Below are positions 5,503 to 27,622 of a DNA stretch of 64,000 bases, in pieces; the first letter of the stretch is position 1, and each line of letters opens with the position of its first letter. The notes under the pieces are model-generated. The model was not told the origin of the DNA and did no database searches. It saw only the letters and a list, made by a program, of their open reading frames with translations. A program made the translations under genes and the position numbers. The stretch is from Nostoc favosum CHAB5714 (GTDB lineage Bacteria > Cyanobacteriota > Cyanobacteriia > Cyanobacteriales > Nostocaceae). Location of the stretch: the NCBI RefSeq assembly GCF_020829495.1, contig NZ_JAIVFQ010000001.1:62001-126000 (forward strand). The letters run 5' to 3'.

Positions 5503-6822
5503 TCATTTTTGTCTATCCACCTTCATCTGTGAAAACACCCGATAAGCATCCAGATTTAACTGCGGATTACTACTTTGGTCTTCTTCGATCTTAATTAAGT
5601 TGTATTCTACATTTTCTGCGTAAATTGCAAACGTTATATTAAAAATTTCCATAAAATTGATTACCCACTTACACTCATCTTCAGGATATTTTTCGTAATA
5701 GCGAATCAGATGAGCAATTTTAATCTCTAAATGCCTACGGGAATTTCTACAAATCAAAATAGTCTTTAACAGGATAATAACTAATGTTAAAGAGTGACCT
5801 TGGGTAAGCAATAGTATAAATAATAACGAAGGTTCTTTACCATTTTCTGTTGTAAAACAATCAATAACTCGATTACAGGTTCTCAAAAATAATTCCTTAG
5901 TGAGAATTTCTTGATTATAATCTTTCTTCCATAAAGATAAATTTTCTGCAAACTGCTGCCGCAAAGTCTTAACTAATTCTTGATTATCTACAGAAAAAAA
6001 TAGATATTTTTCTATACTTATTTTAAATTGTTCAAGGGTTTGCCCTTGAGTTTGCTTAATAAATATATTGGCAATATTCTCATGGCTAAATACACCCTTT
6101 TTTAAAACAATCGCTTTTATTAAACGCAGAACATTATCTCCCAAGACACTGGGATTTTTGTAGCGTGTTGTGCTTGAGACGGCAGATTGAGAACGAGCTA
6201 TATACATTGCCAGTTCAAACTTATATTTATCTTTAATCTGTCTAGAAAGCTTTCTGGCAGCCTCTTGTTGCTCTCTTGGATTATTCTCATTAACAGATTG
6301 AGCAACTAAGAAATAGGAAGTGTAGCGATTAGCCCAATGACCTTTATATAATTCGTCATGTTTAGCAGCAAATAGTTTTATTTCTTGATAGTCTTTGCTA
6401 TTTATAAAATTCTCTAGCCAGCTTTTACAGATATTTATTGCTGGAAAATAATTAGCTTTTAATTCTAGGTTTTTAATAGCAAATAAATTAATTAATTCTT
6501 GGATATACTTATCTTTTCTGTTAGTTTTCCAAGTATTAATTATTATATATATGCACCGCTTAAGTGTATTACGAAAATCATCTTCTTTATCATCTAAAAA
6601 AATCTTGTATATTCCAGGTATAGAATAACAATATTCTGAATCGAGTCCGTCTATAAATAAAGCTTTGAATTTGCGTAAAACTTCATCTGGCGACATTGTG
6701 TTGACAGCTTCTATGAAGAAAGTATAAACCTCTTCTTGTGCAATTTGCACATTTACCTGTCTAGAGTGAGACGTAATACAATGGGGATATTCCTGACTAA
6801 TTGATAAACTATTAGCGGTCAT
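5503..6822 (-). CDS. Hypothetical protein, 439 aa, helical
   Basis: I do not recognise this protein. It has 439 residues and is Ile/Leu/Asn/Lys-rich with no signal peptide and no convincing transmembrane segment. It looks mostly alpha-helical, with short hydrophobic helices such as LLFILLLTQGHSLTLVIILL near residue 335. No catalytic motif was found. The codon use is more AT-rich than that of its neighbours, which may mean recent acquisition or relaxed selection. It converges on the UPF0104 gene, whose stop is 12 bp away. A start further downstream is possible; the ATG given is the first in frame. Confidence 0.65.
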   Translation of the reverse strand: MTANSLSISQEYPHCITSHSRQVNVQIAQEEVYTFFIEAVNTMSPDEVLRKFKALFIDGLDSEYCYSIPGIYKIFLDDKEDDFRNTLKRCIYIIINTWKTNRKDKYIQELINLFAIKNLELKANYFPAINICKSWLENFINSKDYQEIKLFAAKHDELYKGHWANRYTSYFLVAQSVNENNPREQQEAARKLSRQIKDKYKFELAMYIARSQSAVSSTTRYKNPSVLGDNVLRLIKAIVLKKGVFSHENIANIFIKQTQGQTLEQFKISIEKYLFFSVDNQELVKTLRQQFAENLSLWKKDYNQEILTKELFLRTCNRVIDCFTTENGKEPSLLFILLLTQGHSLTLVIILLKTILICRNSRRHLEIKIAHLIRYYEKYPEDECKWVINFMEIFNITFAIYAENVEYNLIKIEEDQSSNPQLNLDAYRVFSQMKVDRQK

Positions 6823-14943: not shown

Positions 14944-15752
14944 TTATACTGGCTTCCAAGTATTTAAAGATGCTTGAATAGGAGGAAATTCGCTCAAATA
15001 TTTATTAAGCTTTGCTTTCTGAGCTTCAACGGTTGCAAGAATTTGCTCTTTTTCGGTTTCTCTAGTTTCCCGTTCTCTCAACACACAGTCAAACTGCTCT
15101 TTAAACCTATTCATATAGGCATTAATTTGCTGTTCTGCATCTTTGAAGTCTTTTGCTACCTGTTTATCAATAACTCGCTCTAGTAGGTGTTGGTTTCTCG
15201 AAACTTGTTCATCTATCTTTTGCTGAATTAATCTTGCTGTTTCTTTTAAGTCAATGTCATAAACATCTCCTCGAATCGGCACATCAACATAATAATCAGG
15301 TTGACAGCAACTACCACTTCTCTTTTCTGGTGTTTTTCCAATAATGACATCTTGTTGATGTTGAATTACTGCGTCAATACCTTAATAACAACAGGTTCTC
15401 TTTGCCCCTGTCGATACTCTAGCAATCTTGGTGTAGCTATAGTGTAAATTGGTCGGATATCAGTACGGCAGATTGTACACGCTTCTGCTTCACTTGCCAA
15501 AACATCAGCACCAATCACAGCATTCAAAAAAGTACTCTTGCCAGCTTTCATTGCTGCAATCACAGCTACCTGATACTTCTGATCTTTCAATGCCTGTAAA
15601 GCTTTGTTGATATTATTCTCGACACTCTGCAAACCTTTGGTATCGTCTCCTTCGCTGAGGCGACCTTGGCGAATTTCCTGAAGGTACTGTAAAAGACGTG
15701 TGCCAGTGTTGTATATGCTGTCGTGCGCTGCTTGGAACTGTTCAGAGGACAT
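14944..15752 (-). pseudogene. Decayed dynamin-like GTPase gene (internal deletion and frameshift)
   Basis: Two coding remnants lie in order on the minus strand. The N-terminal remnant (15752-15366) encodes about 128 residues with the P-loop AAMKAGKSTFLNAVIG near residue 68 and a following TICRTDIRPIY stretch like dynamin switch I; it then runs into a stop. The C-terminal remnant, readable in another frame from about 15385 to 14944, encodes about 145 residues of charged coiled coil (QINAYMNRFKEQFDCVLRER), like the end of a dynamin stalk. The G3/G4 motifs and most of the stalk, some 400 residues by comparison with usual dynamin lengths, are missing. The junction lies near 15375. The product cannot be a working GTPase. 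Confidence 0.8.
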
Positions 15753-20729: not shown

Positions 20730-21341
20730 CTACCAAACTTTACTCATATTCAGAACAAACCCAGGCAATACTGATTCACCGCTAACAGTCGCGGGATTTT
20801 CCAAACATTCCTCTGGTACACCAGGACGATAAATATAGACTCGGCGATGCTTGCGGTCAATTAGCAAGCCTAGCTGTACTCCTGGCTCCCTCATATATTC
20901 CTCCATTTTTTCCTTCAACGGTTGGAGGTTATCAGAAGCCGACCTTAGTTCAAGTACAAAATCTGGACAGATGGGGGCAAATCTTTGCTGTTTTTCTGGG
21001 GAGATAGCATTCCACCGTTCCAGTTTAATCCAGGAAGCATCAGGCGTAGACACGGAGTGGCTTGTCGTCAGACATCGCTCTGCACCCGTTGAGAGCTTAA
21101 ATCCTGTGCTGGAATCAAAACAAATACCTGTCCCGTCTTTTTCTGCCCAAACTCCTAGCTGTAAGGCAACGTTGAAGTTACGATTACCCGTCTCTGAACC
21201 AGTGGGGGACATAATTGATATTTCTCCAAATTGATTCCGCTCAATGCGTAATTCACGATTAACCTGACAAAGGTCAAAAAACTGCTCGTCTGTCATTTGC
21301 ATTGAGGGAGGAATTTGCACAACTAAAGGGGATGAAAACAT
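20730..21341 (-). CDS. Uma2 family (DUF820) putative nuclease, tandem copy A
   Basis: This 203-residue member of the Uma2/DUF820 family (PD-(D/E)XK nuclease fold), greatly expanded in filamentous cyanobacteria, has unknown biological role. Visible family motifs are PPTGSETGNRN-like (MSPTGSETGNRN), TPDASWIKLERW, and PDFVLELRS with the catalytic-type Asp-(x)-Glu. DNLQPLKEKMEEYMREPGVQLGLLID follows in shorter conserved blocks. The ATG at 21341 is chosen because GAGGAAATC precedes it; longer in-frame starts lack this. It is nearly identical to the neighbouring copy. A short dispersed repeat (about 21045-21077) inserts CLTTSHSVS into the frame compared with the paralogue at 37700. Confidence 0.82.
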   Translation of the reverse strand: MFSSPLVVQIPPSMQMTDEQFFDLCQVNRELRIERNQFGEISIMSPTGSETGNRNFNVALQLGVWAEKDGTGICFDSSTGFKLSTGAERCLTTSHSVSTPDASWIKLERWNAISPEKQQRFAPICPDFVLELRSASDNLQPLKEKMEEYMREPGVQLGLLIDRKHRRVYIYRPGVPEECLENPATVSGESVLPGFVLNMSKVW

Positions 21342-21480
21342 GATGATTTCCTCTAGGTTTTGCTGTCTACCCGACTGGCTTGTATTTCTTATTCTCTCCC
21401 AAACCATTGTTACTGTTGAATTCAGCAAGCATTAACTGGGGATTCTACTAATGATTTAAGACTTAGGTATTCATTTGCTC

Positions 21481-22092
21481 CTACCACACTTTATTCAAAT
21501 TCAGAACAAACCCAGGTAATACCGATTCATCGCTAACAGTCGCGGGATTTTCCAAACATTCCTCTGGTACACCAGGACGATAAATATAGACTCGGCGATG
21601 CTTGCGGTCAATTAGCAAGCCTAGCTGTACTCCTGGCTCCCTCATATATTCCTCCATTTTCTCCTTCAACGGTTGGAGGTTATCAGAAAGCGACCTCAGT
21701 TCAAGGACAAAATCTGGACAGATGGGGGCAAATCTTTGCTGTTTTTCTTGGGAGAGAGCATTCCACCGTTCCAGTTTAATCCAGGAAGCATCAGGCGTAG
21801 ACACGGAGTGGCTTGTCGTCAGACATCGCTCTGCACCCGTTGAGAGCTTAAATCCTGTGCTGGAATCAAAACAAATACCTGTCCCGTCTTTTTCTGCCCA
21901 AACATATAATTGACCAGCGATGCTGAAGTTACGATTACCTGTCTCTGAACCAGTGGGGGGCATAATTGATATTTCTCCAAATTGATTCCGCTCAATGCGT
22001 AATTCACGATTAACCTGACAAAAGTCAAAAAACTGCTCGTCTGTCATTTGCATTGAAGGAGGAATTTGCACAACTAAAGGGGATGAAAACAT
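21481..22092 (-). CDS. Uma2 family (DUF820) putative nuclease, tandem copy B
   Basis: This 203-residue near-identical tandem duplicate of 20730-21341 differs at only a few positions (for example IAGQLYVWAEKD against VALQLGVWAEKD). It has the same GAGGAAATC ribosome binding site before ATG 22092. The in-frame dispersed-repeat insertion CLTTSHSVS is present here too (about 21796-21828), so it predates the duplication. Conserved PDFVLELRS and the DASWIKLERW segment indicate an intact nuclease fold; function is unknown. Confidence 0.82.
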   Translation of the reverse strand: MFSSPLVVQIPPSMQMTDEQFFDFCQVNRELRIERNQFGEISIMPPTGSETGNRNFSIAGQLYVWAEKDGTGICFDSSTGFKLSTGAERCLTTSHSVSTPDASWIKLERWNALSQEKQQRFAPICPDFVLELRSLSDNLQPLKEKMEEYMREPGVQLGLLIDRKHRRVYIYRPGVPEECLENPATVSDESVLPGFVLNLNKVW

Positions 22093-22371
22093 AATGATTT
22101 CCTCTAGGTTTTCCTGTCTACCCGACTGGCTTGTATTTCTTATTCTTACGCAAGTCATTCTTTTGGTGAGACGGTAATATTCGTTTTCGCCACAATTTTC
22201 TGGAAAGCAGGTGTATTTTGTGGTATTTAACTCCAACTTAAGTTTAGCAGGCAATGAAAATTAAAATAGTAATTTTACTGGGGTTGTTAAATATTTACGT
22301 GAGTTACGATACAGCATGAATAACGAGCGAATACTAACATCTTTTCTTTGTCTTAGACGGGGTGGATACTG

Positions 22372-22698
22372 ATGACATCTGAAAGCGAGCGTGAAAAAGA
22401 ACTTGAACACCGAGAACGTATATTACGAGAACGAGAAGTTGAATTGCGGCTCCGGGAAATGGAAAGTAACATCTATGCTACCGATGCGGTTTTTCATCAA
22501 ACTGTCAAGCATCAACCAGAAAATTCCCAGAAACCTTGGATGAAAAAAGTGATTCTGGGTGGGAAGCTGTTTGTTCTTGGTGTGGTAGCGCTGGTTGCAG
22601 TGAGGTTAGCCTCAGTGCTGGCTGGGTTTATCATTGTTGGTGCGCTGGGGTGGATGTCTTACAAATTATTTTTGGAATCTAAAAAAACCAATCTTTAA
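22372..22698 (+). CDS. Small coiled-coil membrane protein upstream of BDLP1
   Basis: This 108-residue protein has a highly charged N-terminal coiled coil (residues 3-35, EREKELEHRERILREREVEL), a short linker and a C-terminal hydrophobic stretch (about 62-100) that can form one or two membrane helices. Its stop lies 15 bp before the BDLP1 ATG, so the two are almost certainly co-transcribed. That suggests it is an anchor or partner for the dynamin. No family was recognised. Confidence 0.75.
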   Translation: MTSESEREKELEHRERILREREVELRLREMESNIYATDAVFHQTVKHQPENSQKPWMKKVILGGKLFVLGVVALVAVRLASVLAGFIIVGALGWMSYKLFLESKKTNL

Positions 22699-22713: not shown

Positions 22714-24795
22714 ATGACTGATCAAGTAGCAAATGACAGATTTATCCAAGATTTAGAGCGAGTTGCTCAAGTGCGATCGGAGATTTCTGTGTGTTTAAGT
22801 AAATTAGCCCAAACAATTAATCAAGCTGAGTTGGCTGGAGACTCTTCATCAGGTAAACTCAGTTTAGAGCGAGATATTGAAGATATTACAATAGCTAGTA
22901 AAAACCTCCGGCAAGGTGTATTTCGCCTTTTGGTATTGGGCGATATGAAACGCGGGAAAAGTACGTTTCTCAATGCCTTAATTGGGGAAAACTTATTACC
23001 AAGTGATGTTAACCCTTGTACCGCAGTGTTAACAGTTTTACGCTATGGGCCAGAAAAGAAAGTTACCATTCATTTTAATGATGGGAAAAGTCCGCAACAG
23101 CTAGATTTTCAAAACTTTAAATATAAATATACCATTGATTCGGCTGAAGCTAAAAAACTAGAGCAGGAGAAAAAACAAGCATTTCCAGATGTTGATTATG
23201 CAGTAGTTGAGTATCCCTTAACGCTACTAGAAAAGGGAATTGAAATTGTCGATAGTCCAGGATTGAATGATACAGAAGCGCGAAATGAATTATCTTTGGG
23301 TTATGTAAATAACTGCCATGCAATTTTGTTTGTGATGAGAGCTTCTCAACCTTGTACCTTGGGTGAGCGTCGCTACCTAGAAAATTATATCAAAGGTCGA
23401 GGATTGACAGTTTTCTTCTTAGTTAACGCTTGGGATCAGGTGCGGGAATCATTGATTGATCCTGATGATGTGGAAGAATTAAAAGCATCTGAGAATAGAT
23501 TGCGGCAAGTATTTAACGCGAATTTAGCAGAATATTGTACTGTAGAAGGTCAGAATATTTATGACGAACGAGTGTTTGAGCTTTCGTCAATTCAAGCACT
23601 CAGACGACGGTTAAAAAATCCCCAAGCTGATTTAGAGGGGACTGGCTTTCCGAAGTTTATGGAAGCGCTTAATACTTTTCTTACCAGAGAACGTGCGATC
23701 GCAGAACTCCGTCAAGTGAGAACCTTGGCAAGACTTGCCTGCAATCATACCCGCGAAGCAGTTGCAAGGCGCATACCATTACTCGATCAAGATGTAAATG
23801 AATTAAAAAAACGGATTGATTCAGTGGAACCTGAGTTTAACAAACTCACAGGTATTCGAGATGAATTCCAAAAAGAAATTATCAATACAAGAGACACTCA
23901 AGCAAGAACAATTTCCGAATCTTTTCGCGGCTACGTTTTAAATTTAGGTAATACTTTTGAAACCGATTTCTTGCGCTATCAGCCGGAATTAAATCTGTTT
24001 GATTTTCTCAGTAGTGGTAAACGAGAAGCATTTAACACCGCACTGCAAAAAGCCTTTGAGCAATATATCACTGACAAATCTGCTGCTTGGACATTAACTG
24101 CTGAAAAAGATATCAATGCCGCTTTTAAAGAACTTTCTCGGAGTGCTTCACAATATGGCGCGTCTTACAGTCAAGTCACAGATCAAATCACAGAAAAACT
24201 CACCGGACAAAACGTCAAAGTAAATGCCACTACTACAGCTGAAGAAGATAACTCTCCCAGCTGGGCAAAATGGGCAATGGGATTGTTATCACTGTCTAAG
24301 GGAAATCTTGCTGGTTTCGCACTAGCAGGAGCCGGATTTGATTGGAAAAATATCTTGTTAAACTACTTTACTGTAATTGGCATTGGCGGGATAATTACAG
24401 CAGTGACAGGTATTTTTCTTGGCCCCATCGGGTTTGCACTGCTAGGTTTAGGAGTAGGATTTTTGCAAGCAGATCAAGCGCGTAAAGAATTAGTTAAAAC
24501 GGCGAAGAAAGAGTTAGTTAAACATCTCCCCCAAGTCGCACATGAGCAATCTCAGGTTGTATACAATGCCGTTAAAGAGTGTTTTGACTCTTACGAAAGA
24601 GAAGTGAGTAAGCGGATTAACGATGATATTGTATCTCGGAAATCTGAATTAGATAATCTAGTCAAGCAGAAACAAACCCGCGAAATAAATCGTGAGGGTG
24701 AGTTCAATCGTTTAAAAAATTTACAAGAAGATGTAATAGCTCAGTTGCAAAAAATCGAGGCGGCGTATAGCAATTTATTAGCTTATTATAGTTGA
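22714..24795 (+). CDS. Bacterial dynamin-like protein, BDLP1 orthologue
   Basis: This 693-residue GTPase matches, from memory, the N. punctiforme BDLP1 used for crystal and cryo-EM structures, at the same length. The GTPase domain has the P-loop LGDMKRGKST with Lys82, the G3 motif VDSPGLND and the G4 motif NAWD. Helical neck and trunk bundles follow, then a hydrophobic paddle (about residues 546-585, TVIGIGGIITAVTGIFLGPI) that inserts in membranes, and a return helix to the C-terminus. BDLP1 binds lipid and forms helical coats that tubulate membranes (established for the orthologue). It is co-directional with 22372-22698 and followed, 586 bp later, by a second dynamin. Confidence 0.95.
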   Translation: MTDQVANDRFIQDLERVAQVRSEISVCLSKLAQTINQAELAGDSSSGKLSLERDIEDITIASKNLRQGVFRLLVLGDMKRGKSTFLNALIGENLLPSDVNPCTAVLTVLRYGPEKKVTIHFNDGKSPQQLDFQNFKYKYTIDSAEAKKLEQEKKQAFPDVDYAVVEYPLTLLEKGIEIVDSPGLNDTEARNELSLGYVNNCHAILFVMRASQPCTLGERRYLENYIKGRGLTVFFLVNAWDQVRESLIDPDDVEELKASENRLRQVFNANLAEYCTVEGQNIYDERVFELSSIQALRRRLKNPQADLEGTGFPKFMEALNTFLTRERAIAELRQVRTLARLACNHTREAVARRIPLLDQDVNELKKRIDSVEPEFNKLTGIRDEFQKEIINTRDTQARTISESFRGYVLNLGNTFETDFLRYQPELNLFDFLSSGKREAFNTALQKAFEQYITDKSAAWTLTAEKDINAAFKELSRSASQYGASYSQVTDQITEKLTGQNVKVNATTTAEEDNSPSWAKWAMGLLSLSKGNLAGFALAGAGFDWKNILLNYFTVIGIGGIITAVTGIFLGPIGFALLGLGVGFLQADQARKELVKTAKKELVKHLPQVAHEQSQVVYNAVKECFDSYEREVSKRINDDIVSRKSELDNLVKQKQTREINREGEFNRLKNLQEDVIAQLQKIEAAYSNLLAYYS

Positions 24796-25381
24796 TAATA
24801 GTTTATTACTCTCATTCCCAGATAGAAGCTAAAAATGCTTATAGGGAAGCTCTGAACTATGCCTCCCCTAACTATAAGTCAATACGATTCAGTTAACTAT
24901 TTCTTTCTTCCCTTCGCGTTCTTTGCGTCCTTTGCGGTTCGTTAAAATAATTGACTTTGGCAATTAGCAACGAACCGCGAAGAGCGCAAAGGACACAAAG
25001 AAATAAAGAAAGGAACTTTGGCGCAACCTAAGAGGCTGTTTGAAAAGTAATTGGTTATGATTTTAAGTACTTCTAGATCCCCCCTAGCCCCCCTTAAAAA
25101 GGGGGGAACCGGAATCAAAGCCCCCCTTTTTAAGGAGAAGAATCAAAGTCTCCCAATTTATCGGGGGATTTAGGGGTATCTAAAACGTTTTGCTACCGAC
25201 AAGAGGACTTTTCAAACATCCTCTAACAAAAAATAATGGTGTCAGAAGCTTAGTCTTAATAAGCTTTCCTATAAACGATAAATTGCTCAGTCCGAACTAA
25301 AATTTTATTATATGTTTAATTATGCCTAGCATAAACATAAAACGATATGCATGACTAGCTAGAAGCTGAGAACGAGGAACT
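24796..25381. other. Intergenic region between the two dynamin genes
   Basis: It contains an imperfect long hairpin (24911-24942 with 24969-25001; arms of the TTTGCGTCCTTTGCGGTTCG type) and a 192-bp MITE at 25032-25223. The last 150 bp are AT-rich and presumably hold the promoter of the second dynamin gene. Confidence 0.55.
25032..25223. mobile_element. MITE with GAGGCTGTTTGAAAAGT ends
   Basis: The terminal inverted repeats GAGGCTGTTTGAAAAGT (25032-25048) and ACTTTTCAAACATCCTC (25207-25223) match at 16 of 17 positions. TAA direct repeats flank the element at 25029-25031 and 25224-25226. The core holds CCCCCCTTAAAAAGGGGGG-type palindromes. It is non-coding and resembles ends of IS families that duplicate short TA-rich targets. 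Confidence 0.75.
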
Positions 25382-27622
25382 ATGCAACAACAGTATGAAG
25401 GTTATAAGGATTTAGCAGATTCTCTCAAATCTGCATCTGCATTACTGAATTTAGAACGCAAATCGCAACTGCATCAAGATATAATTACCATCTGCAATCA
25501 TCTCGTTAATCCTAGCTTTCGGATTGCGGTATTTGGCCCCTTTAATCATGGCAAATCTACCTTACTTAATGCCATGCTAGGGAATCGCACCTTACCAATT
25601 GATTTAATTCCCACTACAGGCGCAGCGATTACTGTCAAGTATGGTTCTGATGTACGAACTCGCATCATGTTGGTAGATGGTACAGAAATATATCGCAGTG
25701 GCACAGAAATTTTACAGCAATTTGCTATTCTTGATGGCAATAGGCAGATGCGAAAAGATGTAGCATCTGTAGAACTTTTTTGTCCGCATCCCTTTTTAGA
25801 AACAGGTGTAGAATTTCTCGATTTACCAGGAACCAATGATAGAGATGAACAAGATAATTTGGTCAGAGAACAACTTTTAAGTGCAGATTTAGTTATACAA
25901 TTATTAGATGCACGTAAGTTAATGACTTTAGGTGAGCGGGAGAACTTACGAGATTGGTTATTAGATCGCGGTATTAAAACAGTTATTTTTGTCGCTAATT
26001 TTCTTAACTTACTCGAACCCGACGAGCAAAAACAGGTTCAAAATCGCTTGCTGTTTGTTGCAGAAAGCTTTAGAGCCGAATTACCTCCAGGTTTTAGTAA
26101 TTTATATCGCGTTGATGCTTTACCTGCTTTAAGAGCCAGGTTAAAAGGCGATGTTGCGGCTGCCAATAGTAGCGGGTTAGCGGCTTTTGAAACAGCTTTA
26201 CAAAATATTGTGGGGATTTTGCAACCAGATCGTGGTAGTGTGCGTTTGCCAAGAGTGCAAGCGATCGCTTCTGAAATCCAATACTCATTAAAAGCTAAAA
26301 TTGACCCGATTGCTCTTGAAATAAAATCCTTTGATGATAAAGAAAATACTAAAATTGAAATTAAACGAAAAGCCGCTAATTTAATCTATAAAGGTTTTTT
26401 TACTAGCGTGGGAGAGTTACGCGATTGGCTAGCATTACCCAATCTACTCACAAAATATCAATCTAATGCGGCAGTTGCATTGGCAGAAAGTAACTTTAAA
26501 TATTGGCAAACAAATACTCTTAAAAAAGACCTGACACAATTACAATTTGCTGCGGTGAAATGGCTTTATCAAGCTTACGAATTTTTCCAAGAAGAGCGAC
26601 CGCAAGATTTAATAATTCCCTTTCCTAGCGAACCACAAGTAATATTACCATCAAAGCCAAGTAATACTGATGATTTGAGCGAACCTGGTTCTATTGCTGT
26701 TGGTGGTGGTATTGGTTGGTTGTTAGGCGGCCCAGTTGGTGCTGCTGTCGTCGGGAGTATTTCTTATTTGCTAAATAAAAATATCCAAAAACAAGACGAT
26801 CAATTAGCAAAGGAATCTTATCATCAGGAAGTTGCTAAACTTTGTATAACTGCAATTGAAGATTATTTATCTGGCTTCAGTACTCAAGGATTATCTATTT
26901 TGGCTGAATATGAACAGAAAGCCGAAAAAGTAATTTGTTTTGAAGTTAGTCAAGAACCACTAGAAATTACTAATAAACGTGAAAGTTTGCAGCAATTGCA
27001 AAACGGTTTTAATCAGTTGCTGCAAGAGTTAGAGAAAGTAAAAATATCCTCAAATCATCAACCTTATAAAGAAATACCTAAATACAGTAATACCAATAGA
27101 AAATATTCACCACAGCCAGAGAAAGTTCAAGGTTCTCCTAAAAAAGATACTGGTGTTAAGCAACAACAGGAAAATACTGCTAAGAATACTCAGACAAGGG
27201 TAAAATCTGTTTCTCCACCGCCAAAAGCTTCTCCCTCTCCACGTCCAGAAGAAGTGGAGACGAAATTTCGTGAGTGGGAACTCAATGAGGAAATAGCGCG
27301 GATGAAAGCAGAGATGCGTAGCCCTAAGGCTTGTCGTCAGACATCACCTGGTTCCCAAACTAGCAAACAGCAAAATACAACTCAAAGCAACAAAGCACCC
27401 AATCAACCAAAAACCCAGACGGAAAAATATAAGATTACTCGCGCCTATAGTATTTTAGGATTGCAAACAAATGCTTCTCAGGCTGAGGTAAAGCAGGCTT
27501 ATCGAACTTTAGTAAAAAAATGGCATCCAGATTTGTTTGTTAATCAGCCACAACTGCTAAAACAAGCACAAGAGAAAATGCACTTAGTTAATGAAGCTTA
27601 CACAACTTTGAGTGATAAATGA
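25382..27622 (+). CDS. Dynamin-like GTPase fused to a C-terminal J-domain
   Basis: This 746-residue protein has a GTPase domain with P-loop FGPFNHGKST (Lys58), LDLPGTND as G3, and a VANFLN stretch at the G4 position in place of a textbook N/TKxD. A helical stalk contains a glycine-rich hydrophobic segment (about 435-465, GGGIGWLLGGPVGAAVVG) likely to be the membrane paddle. A disordered Pro/Ser/Gln-rich linker runs from about 560 to 670. A complete J-domain occupies the last 67 residues, with EVKQAYRTLVKKW and the HPD tripeptide at 715-717. J-domains stimulate Hsp70 ATPase, so DnaK recruitment to the dynamin coat is inferred. A dispersed repeat inserts about 12 residues (RSPKACRQTSP) in the linker. 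Confidence 0.9.
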   Translation: MQQQYEGYKDLADSLKSASALLNLERKSQLHQDIITICNHLVNPSFRIAVFGPFNHGKSTLLNAMLGNRTLPIDLIPTTGAAITVKYGSDVRTRIMLVDGTEIYRSGTEILQQFAILDGNRQMRKDVASVELFCPHPFLETGVEFLDLPGTNDRDEQDNLVREQLLSADLVIQLLDARKLMTLGERENLRDWLLDRGIKTVIFVANFLNLLEPDEQKQVQNRLLFVAESFRAELPPGFSNLYRVDALPALRARLKGDVAAANSSGLAAFETALQNIVGILQPDRGSVRLPRVQAIASEIQYSLKAKIDPIALEIKSFDDKENTKIEIKRKAANLIYKGFFTSVGELRDWLALPNLLTKYQSNAAVALAESNFKYWQTNTLKKDLTQLQFAAVKWLYQAYEFFQEERPQDLIIPFPSEPQVILPSKPSNTDDLSEPGSIAVGGGIGWLLGGPVGAAVVGSISYLLNKNIQKQDDQLAKESYHQEVAKLCITAIEDYLSGFSTQGLSILAEYEQKAEKVICFEVSQEPLEITNKRESLQQLQNGFNQLLQELEKVKISSNHQPYKEIPKYSNTNRKYSPQPEKVQGSPKKDTGVKQQQENTAKNTQTRVKSVSPPPKASPSPRPEEVETKFREWELNEEIARMKAEMRSPKACRQTSPGSQTSKQQNTTQSNKAPNQPKTQTEKYKITRAYSILGLQTNASQAEVKQAYRTLVKKWHPDLFVNQPQLLKQAQEKMHLVNEAYTTLSDK

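Follow-up and report, generated by a model that had tools for sequence, protein, structure and literature searches.

A dynamin-like protein with a C-terminal J-domain and an ESCRT-III α5-like linker helix, encoded next to BDLP1 in Nostoc favosum and its relatives

The gene pair and the DynJ protein

A stretch of 64,000 nucleotides from the genome of Nostoc favosum CHAB5714 (contig NZ_JAIVFQ010000001.1, positions 62,001 to 126,000 of the forward strand, assembly GCF_020829495.1), hereafter called the window, encodes two dynamin-like proteins close to each other on the forward strand. The upstream gene (22714..24795; all coordinates are positions in the window) codes for the orthologue of BDLP1 (phmmer score of 1483 bits to 2J68 over the whole length; BDLP1 helical domain PF21808, E 5e-184). 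The downstream gene (25382..27622), separated from it by a 586-bp spacer (24796-25381), is an open reading frame (ORF) of 746 amino acids (aa) with an ATG start, whose product, a dynamin-like protein with a C-terminal J-domain, was named DynJ; BDLP1 is its presumed heterotypic partner. The assignment is based on Pfam, on the alignment of 72 fused sequences and on a fold match of residues 1-556.

All DynJ features lie on the forward strand. The Dynamin_N GTPase domain (residues 48-206; 25523..25999; Pfam E 2.6e-25) is conserved and contains, according to Pfam and alignment, the superfamily motifs G1 (GPFNHGKST), G2 (PTT) and G3 (DLPG). The G4 position, N206-F207-x-N209 (25997..26008), lies in the string VANFLN (residues 204-209), and its equivalence to NAWD of BDLP1 comes from alignments. 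Further downstream are a conserved Gly-rich hydrophobic paddle-like segment (residues about 434-468; 26681..26785), a linker containing a helix at residues 619-646 (27236..27319), and the J-domain (residues 686-746; 27437..27619; Pfam DnaJ 688-746, E 2.5e-15) with its HPD motif at 715-717. The Dynamin_N and DnaJ matches both exceed the Pfam curated cut-offs, and DynJ is the only ORF of the 8.5-Mb genome to have both, among 13 Dynamin_N and 14 DnaJ match rows. DynJ is confirmed as a dynamin of the BDLP/mitofusin-like kind whose C-terminal J-domain is intact. The first-pass annotation of the locus, which had named the GTPase, the paddle-like segment, the complete J-domain and BDLP1 next door, was right on these points.

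Two AlphaFold2 (AF2) models of DynJ, one from a 13-row alignment and one from a 36-row alignment (mean predicted local distance difference test score, pLDDT, of 74), contain the G-domain and long helical bundles, a disordered part in which a single helix (residues 622-646) is predicted with low confidence, and the J-domain, the helices of which are visible in the 36-row model. The predicted fold of G-domain and helical bundles is BDLP/mitofusin-like (Z 21-23 to Fzo1, Mfn, IniA and BDLP). For residues 1-556, the matches were Fzo1 9kff (Z 23.1, root-mean-square deviation (rmsd) 4.8, 314 aligned), Mfn1 5yew (Z 22.4, rmsd 5.1, 334 aligned), IniA 6j72 (Z 21.7, rmsd 9.3, 286 aligned), BDLP 2j69 (Z 21.2, rmsd 39.3, 447 aligned, hinged) and Cj-DLP 5owv (Z 19.8, rmsd 8.6, 456 aligned). 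The pLDDT is below 50 over most of residues 427-478 in both models, so that the paddle cannot be judged from them. DynJ and BDLP1 share 29% identity over 306 aligned positions, and PF21808 has no match in DynJ at E<=1. To our knowledge, neither a J-domain nor an ESCRT-like helix is present in Fzo1/mitofusin, IniA, BDLP1 or Cj-DLP1/Cj-DLP2, and at G4 DynJ carries Asn where this group has Asp.

Distribution of the fusion

The best 80 of 203 relatives were taken as named loci. A full-length fusion with HPD is found at 71 of them, 5 are unfused, and 4 are frame-broken or cut by a contig end (L054, L078, L079 and L131). The unfused genes (L126-L129 and L132) code for 557-560 aa and come from Microseira, Phormidium and unplaced cyanobacteria, whereas the 71 fused loci belong to what we take to be heterocyst-forming genera or to Nostocales. 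An assembly or annotation artefact was rejected as the source of the fusion, given these 71 independent full-length loci. Of 22 further genomes from the genus of the strain, 17 have the fusion, with helix and J-domain confirmed in a single frame in all 17, and 5 are without it (G002, G003, G006, G011 and G021).

An order-wide search of 388 genomes yielded 150 that match DynJ at E 1e-60 or better, and 41 of the 150 belong to the GTDB family of the window (f1). For 40 of these 41, the best match lies in a frame that stays open over 713-791 aa; the domains were checked in 30 of the 40, all with dynamin, helix and J-domain with HPD in one frame, and the remaining 10 were judged by frame length alone. 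The 41st genome, G354, matched only at E 1.4e-66 and is not among the matches listed. Two weaker second rows in f1 (G324:C65 and G330:C2:5641584; 40-42% identical, 562-567 aa) were excluded as apparent paralogues. Outside f1, 109 genomes match, and in none of the 106 with a listed best match is the frame of fused size (at most 617 aa); for G155, G290 and G349 the best match is not among the matches listed. The J-tail thus appears, as judged from these frames, to be confined to one GTDB family: close orthologues keep the J-domain, contrary to the condition under which the first-pass annotation would have been refuted, and more distant ones do lack it.

Conservation of the J-domain and of the nucleotide site

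The HPD motif is intact in all 72 aligned J-domains (71 full-length relatives and the window), and the preceding basic residues are nearly as constant (K712 in 70/72, K713 in 67/72). Median ratios of nonsynonymous to synonymous substitution rates (dN/dS; Nei-Gojobori, 1391-1909 of 2556 pairs with dS between 0.2 and 1.2, the pairs not being independent) were 0.07 for the G-domain, 0.06 for the paddle, 0.20 for the J-domain, 0.21 for the trunk and 0.38 for the linker. Because HPD is invariant and dN/dS is 0.20 in the J-domain as against 0.38 in the linker, an Hsp70-recruiting role for the dynamin-borne J-domain is well supported by conservation.

The unusual G4 pointed out in the first-pass annotation is real. 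N-F-x-N is found in 81/81 DynJ orthologues, including the five unfused ones, and BDLP1 has N-A-W-D in 75/75; an Asp-ending G4 of the N/T-x-x-D type is absent from DynJ. Since the unfused orthologues share it, the change is probably older than the fusion. In other GTPases, replacement of D by N at G4 weakens binding of GTP and favours xanthosine triphosphate (XTP). On that analogy it is a fair inference, and no more, that the nucleotide specificity of DynJ is altered or lost.

The linker helix

The linker, annotated at first as disordered, is mostly disordered in the models, although it is not featureless. Its length varies from 87 to 167 residues in the 72 fused proteins, and within it columns 619-646 are ungapped in 72/72 between gappy flanks, with F629, W632, E633, E637 and K642 invariant. 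HPD lies 62-97 residues beyond this helix. None of the 13 other J-domain matches in the genome of the strain has the linker helix.

The NCBIfam family TIGR04376 matches the helix, up to the last position of the family, in 7/7 tails scanned (7 of 72; E 1.6e-8 to 0.005), with scores far under that family's own cut-off. A hidden Markov model (HMM) of the TIGR04376 tail puts its best domain on the helix in 72/72, and every one of these scores is higher than the best among 1440 shuffles. In hhalign, the helix aligns with the extreme C-terminus of TIGR04376 (score 66.6, probability 98) and with residues 189-217 of a Vipp1/PspA profile (score 31.5, probability 81; 200 column-permuted controls at most 18.6), a profile of 56 rows in which Vipp1 is mixed with PspA paralogues. 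TIGR04376 is itself collinear with Vipp1 in a profile-profile alignment (probability 96), its tail falling on Vipp1 helix α5. The linker helix resembles the α5 assembly helix of cyanobacterial PspA/Vipp1-type proteins, members of the ESCRT-III (endosomal sorting complex required for transport III) superfamily, most closely the TIGR04376 tail and more weakly Vipp1.

The profile alignment pairs F629 and W632 with F197 and L200 of Vipp1, a numbering taken from another cyanobacterial Vipp1 and not from the published sequence. According to the cryo-EM paper on Nostoc punctiforme Vipp1, the F197K/L200K double mutation severely inhibited assembly, and α5 contacts the hairpin tips of neighbouring subunits at Interfaces 1 and 3 (PMC8281802).

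Helix and J-domain outside the fusion

A search of 148 genomes with the linker helix gave a match at E 0.05 or better in 126, mostly in ORFs of ~190-220 aa, 26 of which were assigned to TIGR04376 by HMM. L185, in the same genome as DynJ, matches TIGR04376 at E 4e-84 and TIGR02977 pspA at E 1.2e-4. That genome encodes a TIGR04376 protein at C183:52695 and Vipp1 at C241:37267. The same search led to small ORFs beside unfused dynamin genes. In genus g84 of family f9, all seven genomes with an orthologue (four chosen by a helix-search match, three by genus) have, 19-64 bases past the dynamin, a frame that encodes the helix, a short Pro-rich linker and a J-domain (J-domain E 1e-22 to 4e-29; helix E 1e-7 to 6e-4). 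A J gene also lies downstream in 3 of 40 further unfused orthologues, three of the 40 having downstream sequence that ends at a contig end (471, 522 and 1000 bases). These are L258 (f21), where the helix HMM misses E 0.01 and a similar stretch was seen by eye, and L276 and L279 (f18), where the J frame overlaps the end of the dynamin frame. In L276 and L279 the helix is seemingly repeated twice ahead of the J-domain. No J gene was found downstream of the unfused dynamin in four other f9 genomes (G059, G082, G118 and G215). Two further helix-J proteins were found, L212, with no dynamin match within its 6.5 kb, and L217, which overlaps a C-terminal dynamin fragment. The idea that an unfused dynamin never has a J gene alongside, drawn from five loci (L041-L045), is wrong for one f9 genus and for some of f18 and f21.

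Because a separate J-protein gene can sit just downstream of an unfused dynamin, the simplest account would be that dynamin and helix-J were two neighbouring genes that merged in the heterocyst formers. Split genes in three unfused families favour later fusion of a separate J gene over loss of the J-domain outside f1. A tree of J-domains (63 columns, bootstrap not settled) did not resolve the order of J gain and loss. In it, DynJ and the split genes share a clade (98/97) with L016, L017 and L020, the closest J-domains of the same genome, without pointing to a precise donor.

The helix was also met in another setting. Six proteins of 597-632 aa, four from the helix search (L213-L216) and two from a PF04012 search (L293 and L294), consist of Gly-rich hydrophobic repeats, a Vipp1 α4-α5 segment, WD40 repeats (scanned in two of the six, seen by eye in the rest) and a C-terminal J-domain. 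The Vipp1 segment was detected in 6/6 (E 6e-12 to 2e-8 with the Vipp1/PspA HMM, Z=1000; best shuffle 1.5 bits). In four of the six, the HMM of the DynJ helix matches the same place (E<0.01), the exceptions being L293 and L294. Three of these WD40-J proteins were placed in the J tree, all apart from DynJ, and on this basis the combination of a PspA/Vipp1 assembly helix with a J-domain has probably arisen more than once. The WD40-J family is possibly a membrane-bound Hsp70 recruiter for Vipp1.

Surroundings of the gene pair

A BDLP1 gene (>400 bits) is present at the same locus in 77/80, although adjacency is not universal, since the distance is ~3.9 kb in L126 and ~1.9 kb in L127. As for the three loci without it, L107 and L129 are short of upstream sequence and L132 has none over 5.7 kb. 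G026:C88, L127 and L128 have three consecutive or closely spaced dynamins, of which two are BDLP1-like and one is the DynJ orthologue. The spacer between the two genes measures 34-301 bp in 59 of the 74 relatives computed, some larger values being wrong because the gene does not begin at base 6001 there. In the window, it has a stretch that, judged by eye, resembles a miniature inverted-repeat transposable element; the ends of this stretch are inverted (TGTTTGAAAAG...CTTTTCAAACA), and its presence may account for the length of the spacer.

Just upstream of BDLP1, and ending 15 bp before it, an ORF on the forward strand (22372..22698) encodes a 108-aa DUF3040/SCO2097-like protein (Pfam E 1e-7) with, by hydropathy, a single long hydrophobic stretch (about 57-99). 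In most of the 80 loci a relative of it is encoded close to BDLP1, and it is a possible membrane anchor of the BDLP1/DynJ group. No DnaK gene lies beside a dynamin gene in the genome of the strain, where Hsp70 and dynamin matches are on different contigs. On the reverse strand, a degraded Dynamin_N fragment with an internal stop (15354-15569; E 1.8e-7) is a decayed further dynamin near the pair, and two nearly identical adjoining ORFs of 232 and 257 aa (20730-22254), presumably Uma2-type nuclease genes by their look, are a recent tandem duplication.

Proposed function and alternatives

With the architecture, the gene pair, the distribution of fused and split forms, the helix similarity and the conservation in hand from the computation, we infer that DynJ is a partner of BDLP1 whose tail would dock on ESCRT-III-like polymers and bring DnaK to them, a reading to which we give slightly less than an even chance (about 0.45). 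DynJ would be the second, membrane-remodelling member of a BDLP1 dynamin pair, and its tail would be a formerly separate neighbouring J-protein, fused at the base of the heterocyst-forming cyanobacteria. BDLP1/DynJ would remodel the membrane, the α5-like helix would dock into the hairpin-tip groove normally filled by α5 in the polymer, and the J-domain would pass the polymer, or an adjacent dynamin, to DnaK for ATP-driven remodelling or release. The TIGR04376 polymer would be the likeliest dock, if the TIGR04376 protein polymerises, because W replaces the L of Vipp1 (FxxWE, as in TIGR04376). By sequence, DnaK could act on either an ESCRT-III-like polymer or a dynamin coat; the polymer may be the target because the linker has an α5-like helix and because helix-J occurs without a fused dynamin.

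Several observations weigh against docking on such polymers. The helix has a pLDDT mostly of 40-55 in both models, and a short amphipathic helix could serve another partner. A Vipp1-α5 HMM has its best domain at the helix in 64/72, yet this is above the best shuffle in 11/72 and the DynJ of the window scores 0.8 bits, while the alignment with the Vipp1 profile requires a 4-residue gap. Taken as proof, this direct comparison was rejected as too weak alone; what carries the case is TIGR04376, together with the profile-profile comparison and the bridge formed by the WD40-J proteins. TIGR04376 is itself under the cut-off of Pfam PspA_IM30 (PF04012) in 3/3 proteins, one with 20.6 against 33.9 bits and two with no match. 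PF04012, which covers the α1-α3 hairpin of PspA/Vipp1, has no match in DynJ at E<=1; by its sequence DynJ is not a PspA/Vipp1 protein, and the α5-like helix is the sole part claimed. Most genomes of the order have TIGR04376-like tails, whether or not they encode DynJ, and co-occurrence is therefore no argument for docking. Lastly, 37 of the 47 unfused dynamins examined have no adjoining J gene (3 of the 37 cut by contig ends), so that in such genomes the J function is dispensable or supplied in trans.

Auxilin acts with Hsc70 on clathrin and has its J-domain behind a disordered coat-binding region. DynJ likewise has its J-domain behind a disordered region with a putative binding element, the coat being different and the comparison one of way of working only; unlike in auxilin, the J-domain is on the dynamin itself and the putative binding element is similar to a helix of the coat. 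In a mechanism of this kind, which the first-pass annotation had proposed, the J-domain would bring DnaK to the BDLP1/DynJ coat and drive its disassembly, the helix binding BDLP1 or being an unrelated coiled-coil contact. The fusion of a conserved J-domain to a dynamin with BDLP1 nearby speaks for it, as does a separate cyanobacterial dynamin clade with DnaK encoded downstream (PMC5827413). Recruitment of Hsp70 is indeed supported by conservation, and coat stripping is possible, yet the additional evidence of the α5-like helix points elsewhere: its matches to the assembly helices of TIGR04376 and Vipp1 exceed the controls, and it is met again in the WD40-J proteins, which have another J-domain and lack a dynamin domain. 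Coat disassembly as the role of DynJ is rather unlikely.

It is improbable that the J-domain is an assembly domain coupling DynJ to BDLP1, with Hsp70 recruitment secondary or absent. This was proposed, by analogy with the Cj-DLP1 assembly domain, by Liu et al. 2018 (PMC6104087) and agrees with the pairing of the two genes, but a mere assembly domain needs neither the invariant HPD nor the near-invariant K712/K713, and BDLP1 shares its locus with a J-less dynamin in 3/5 unfused loci (L126-L128). Slightly less probable still is a helix that tethers the dynamin to ESCRT-III-like polymers, holding both machines at one site, with a J-domain that serves only the quality control of DynJ. Conservation of the helix and its hhalign match would fit such a tether, whereas the finding that, in genomes with an unfused dynamin, helix and J-domain stay together in a small protein of their own argues that the pair works as a unit.

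Relation to known systems

The dynamin-J fusion itself is already in print. A single sentence in the discussion by Liu et al. 2018 (PMC6104087) mentions a DnaJ-like C-terminus in B2IZD2 of N. punctiforme, the neighbour of BDLP1; by this description, a dynamin adjoining BDLP1 with a DnaJ-like C-terminus, B2IZD2 is apparently a DynJ orthologue. The tandem arrangement of dynamins (Tandem clades), with DnaK downstream in a different clade, is described by Jilly et al. 2018 (PMC5827413). In the open-access literature, no description was found of the linker helix or its link with the J-domain, nor of the split genes, the restriction to one family or the altered G4, and the terms 'J-domain', 'WD40' and 'TIGR04376' are absent from the main text of a comparative-genomics paper on the phage shock protein (PSP) system.

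A similar system is CDJ2-HSP70B/VIPP1 of Chlamydomonas, in which a J-protein reportedly sends Hsp70 to a PspA/Vipp1 polymer; unlike DynJ, CDJ2 is not a dynamin. The authors of PMC3720927 found no CDJ2 homologue in Synechocystis and conclude that cyanobacteria have none, whereas Synechocystis Vipp1 binds DnaK2 and DnaK3 (PMC4297356). Eukaryotic Vps4 is similar in that an ATPase machine is recruited to an ESCRT-III polymer, although Vps4 is an AAA ATPase and the proposal for DynJ involves Hsp70 with a J-protein as adaptor. A 2026 review states that the regulation of Vipp1/PspA polymerisation and disassembly is still unclear and that there are no direct homologues of other ESCRT proteins.

We tentatively suggest, with somewhat less assurance than for DynJ itself, that cyanobacterial J-proteins with a copy of the polymer's assembly helix direct Hsp70 to ESCRT-III-like polymers, as a bacterial answer to Vps4, and that in heterocyst formers such a protein was fused to a dynamin, possibly of altered nucleotide specificity, wiring dynamin, ESCRT-III and Hsp70 in one polypeptide. 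For the disassembly of the cyanobacterial Vipp1/PspA polymers, the helix-plus-J proteins are concrete candidates for the missing adaptor, with residues named. If true, they would be a bacterial counterpart of CDJ2/HSP70B on chloroplast VIPP1, or of Vps4 on eukaryotic ESCRT-III, and they would also join the dynamin and ESCRT-III systems of bacteria physically, for the first time as far as the open-access literature shows.

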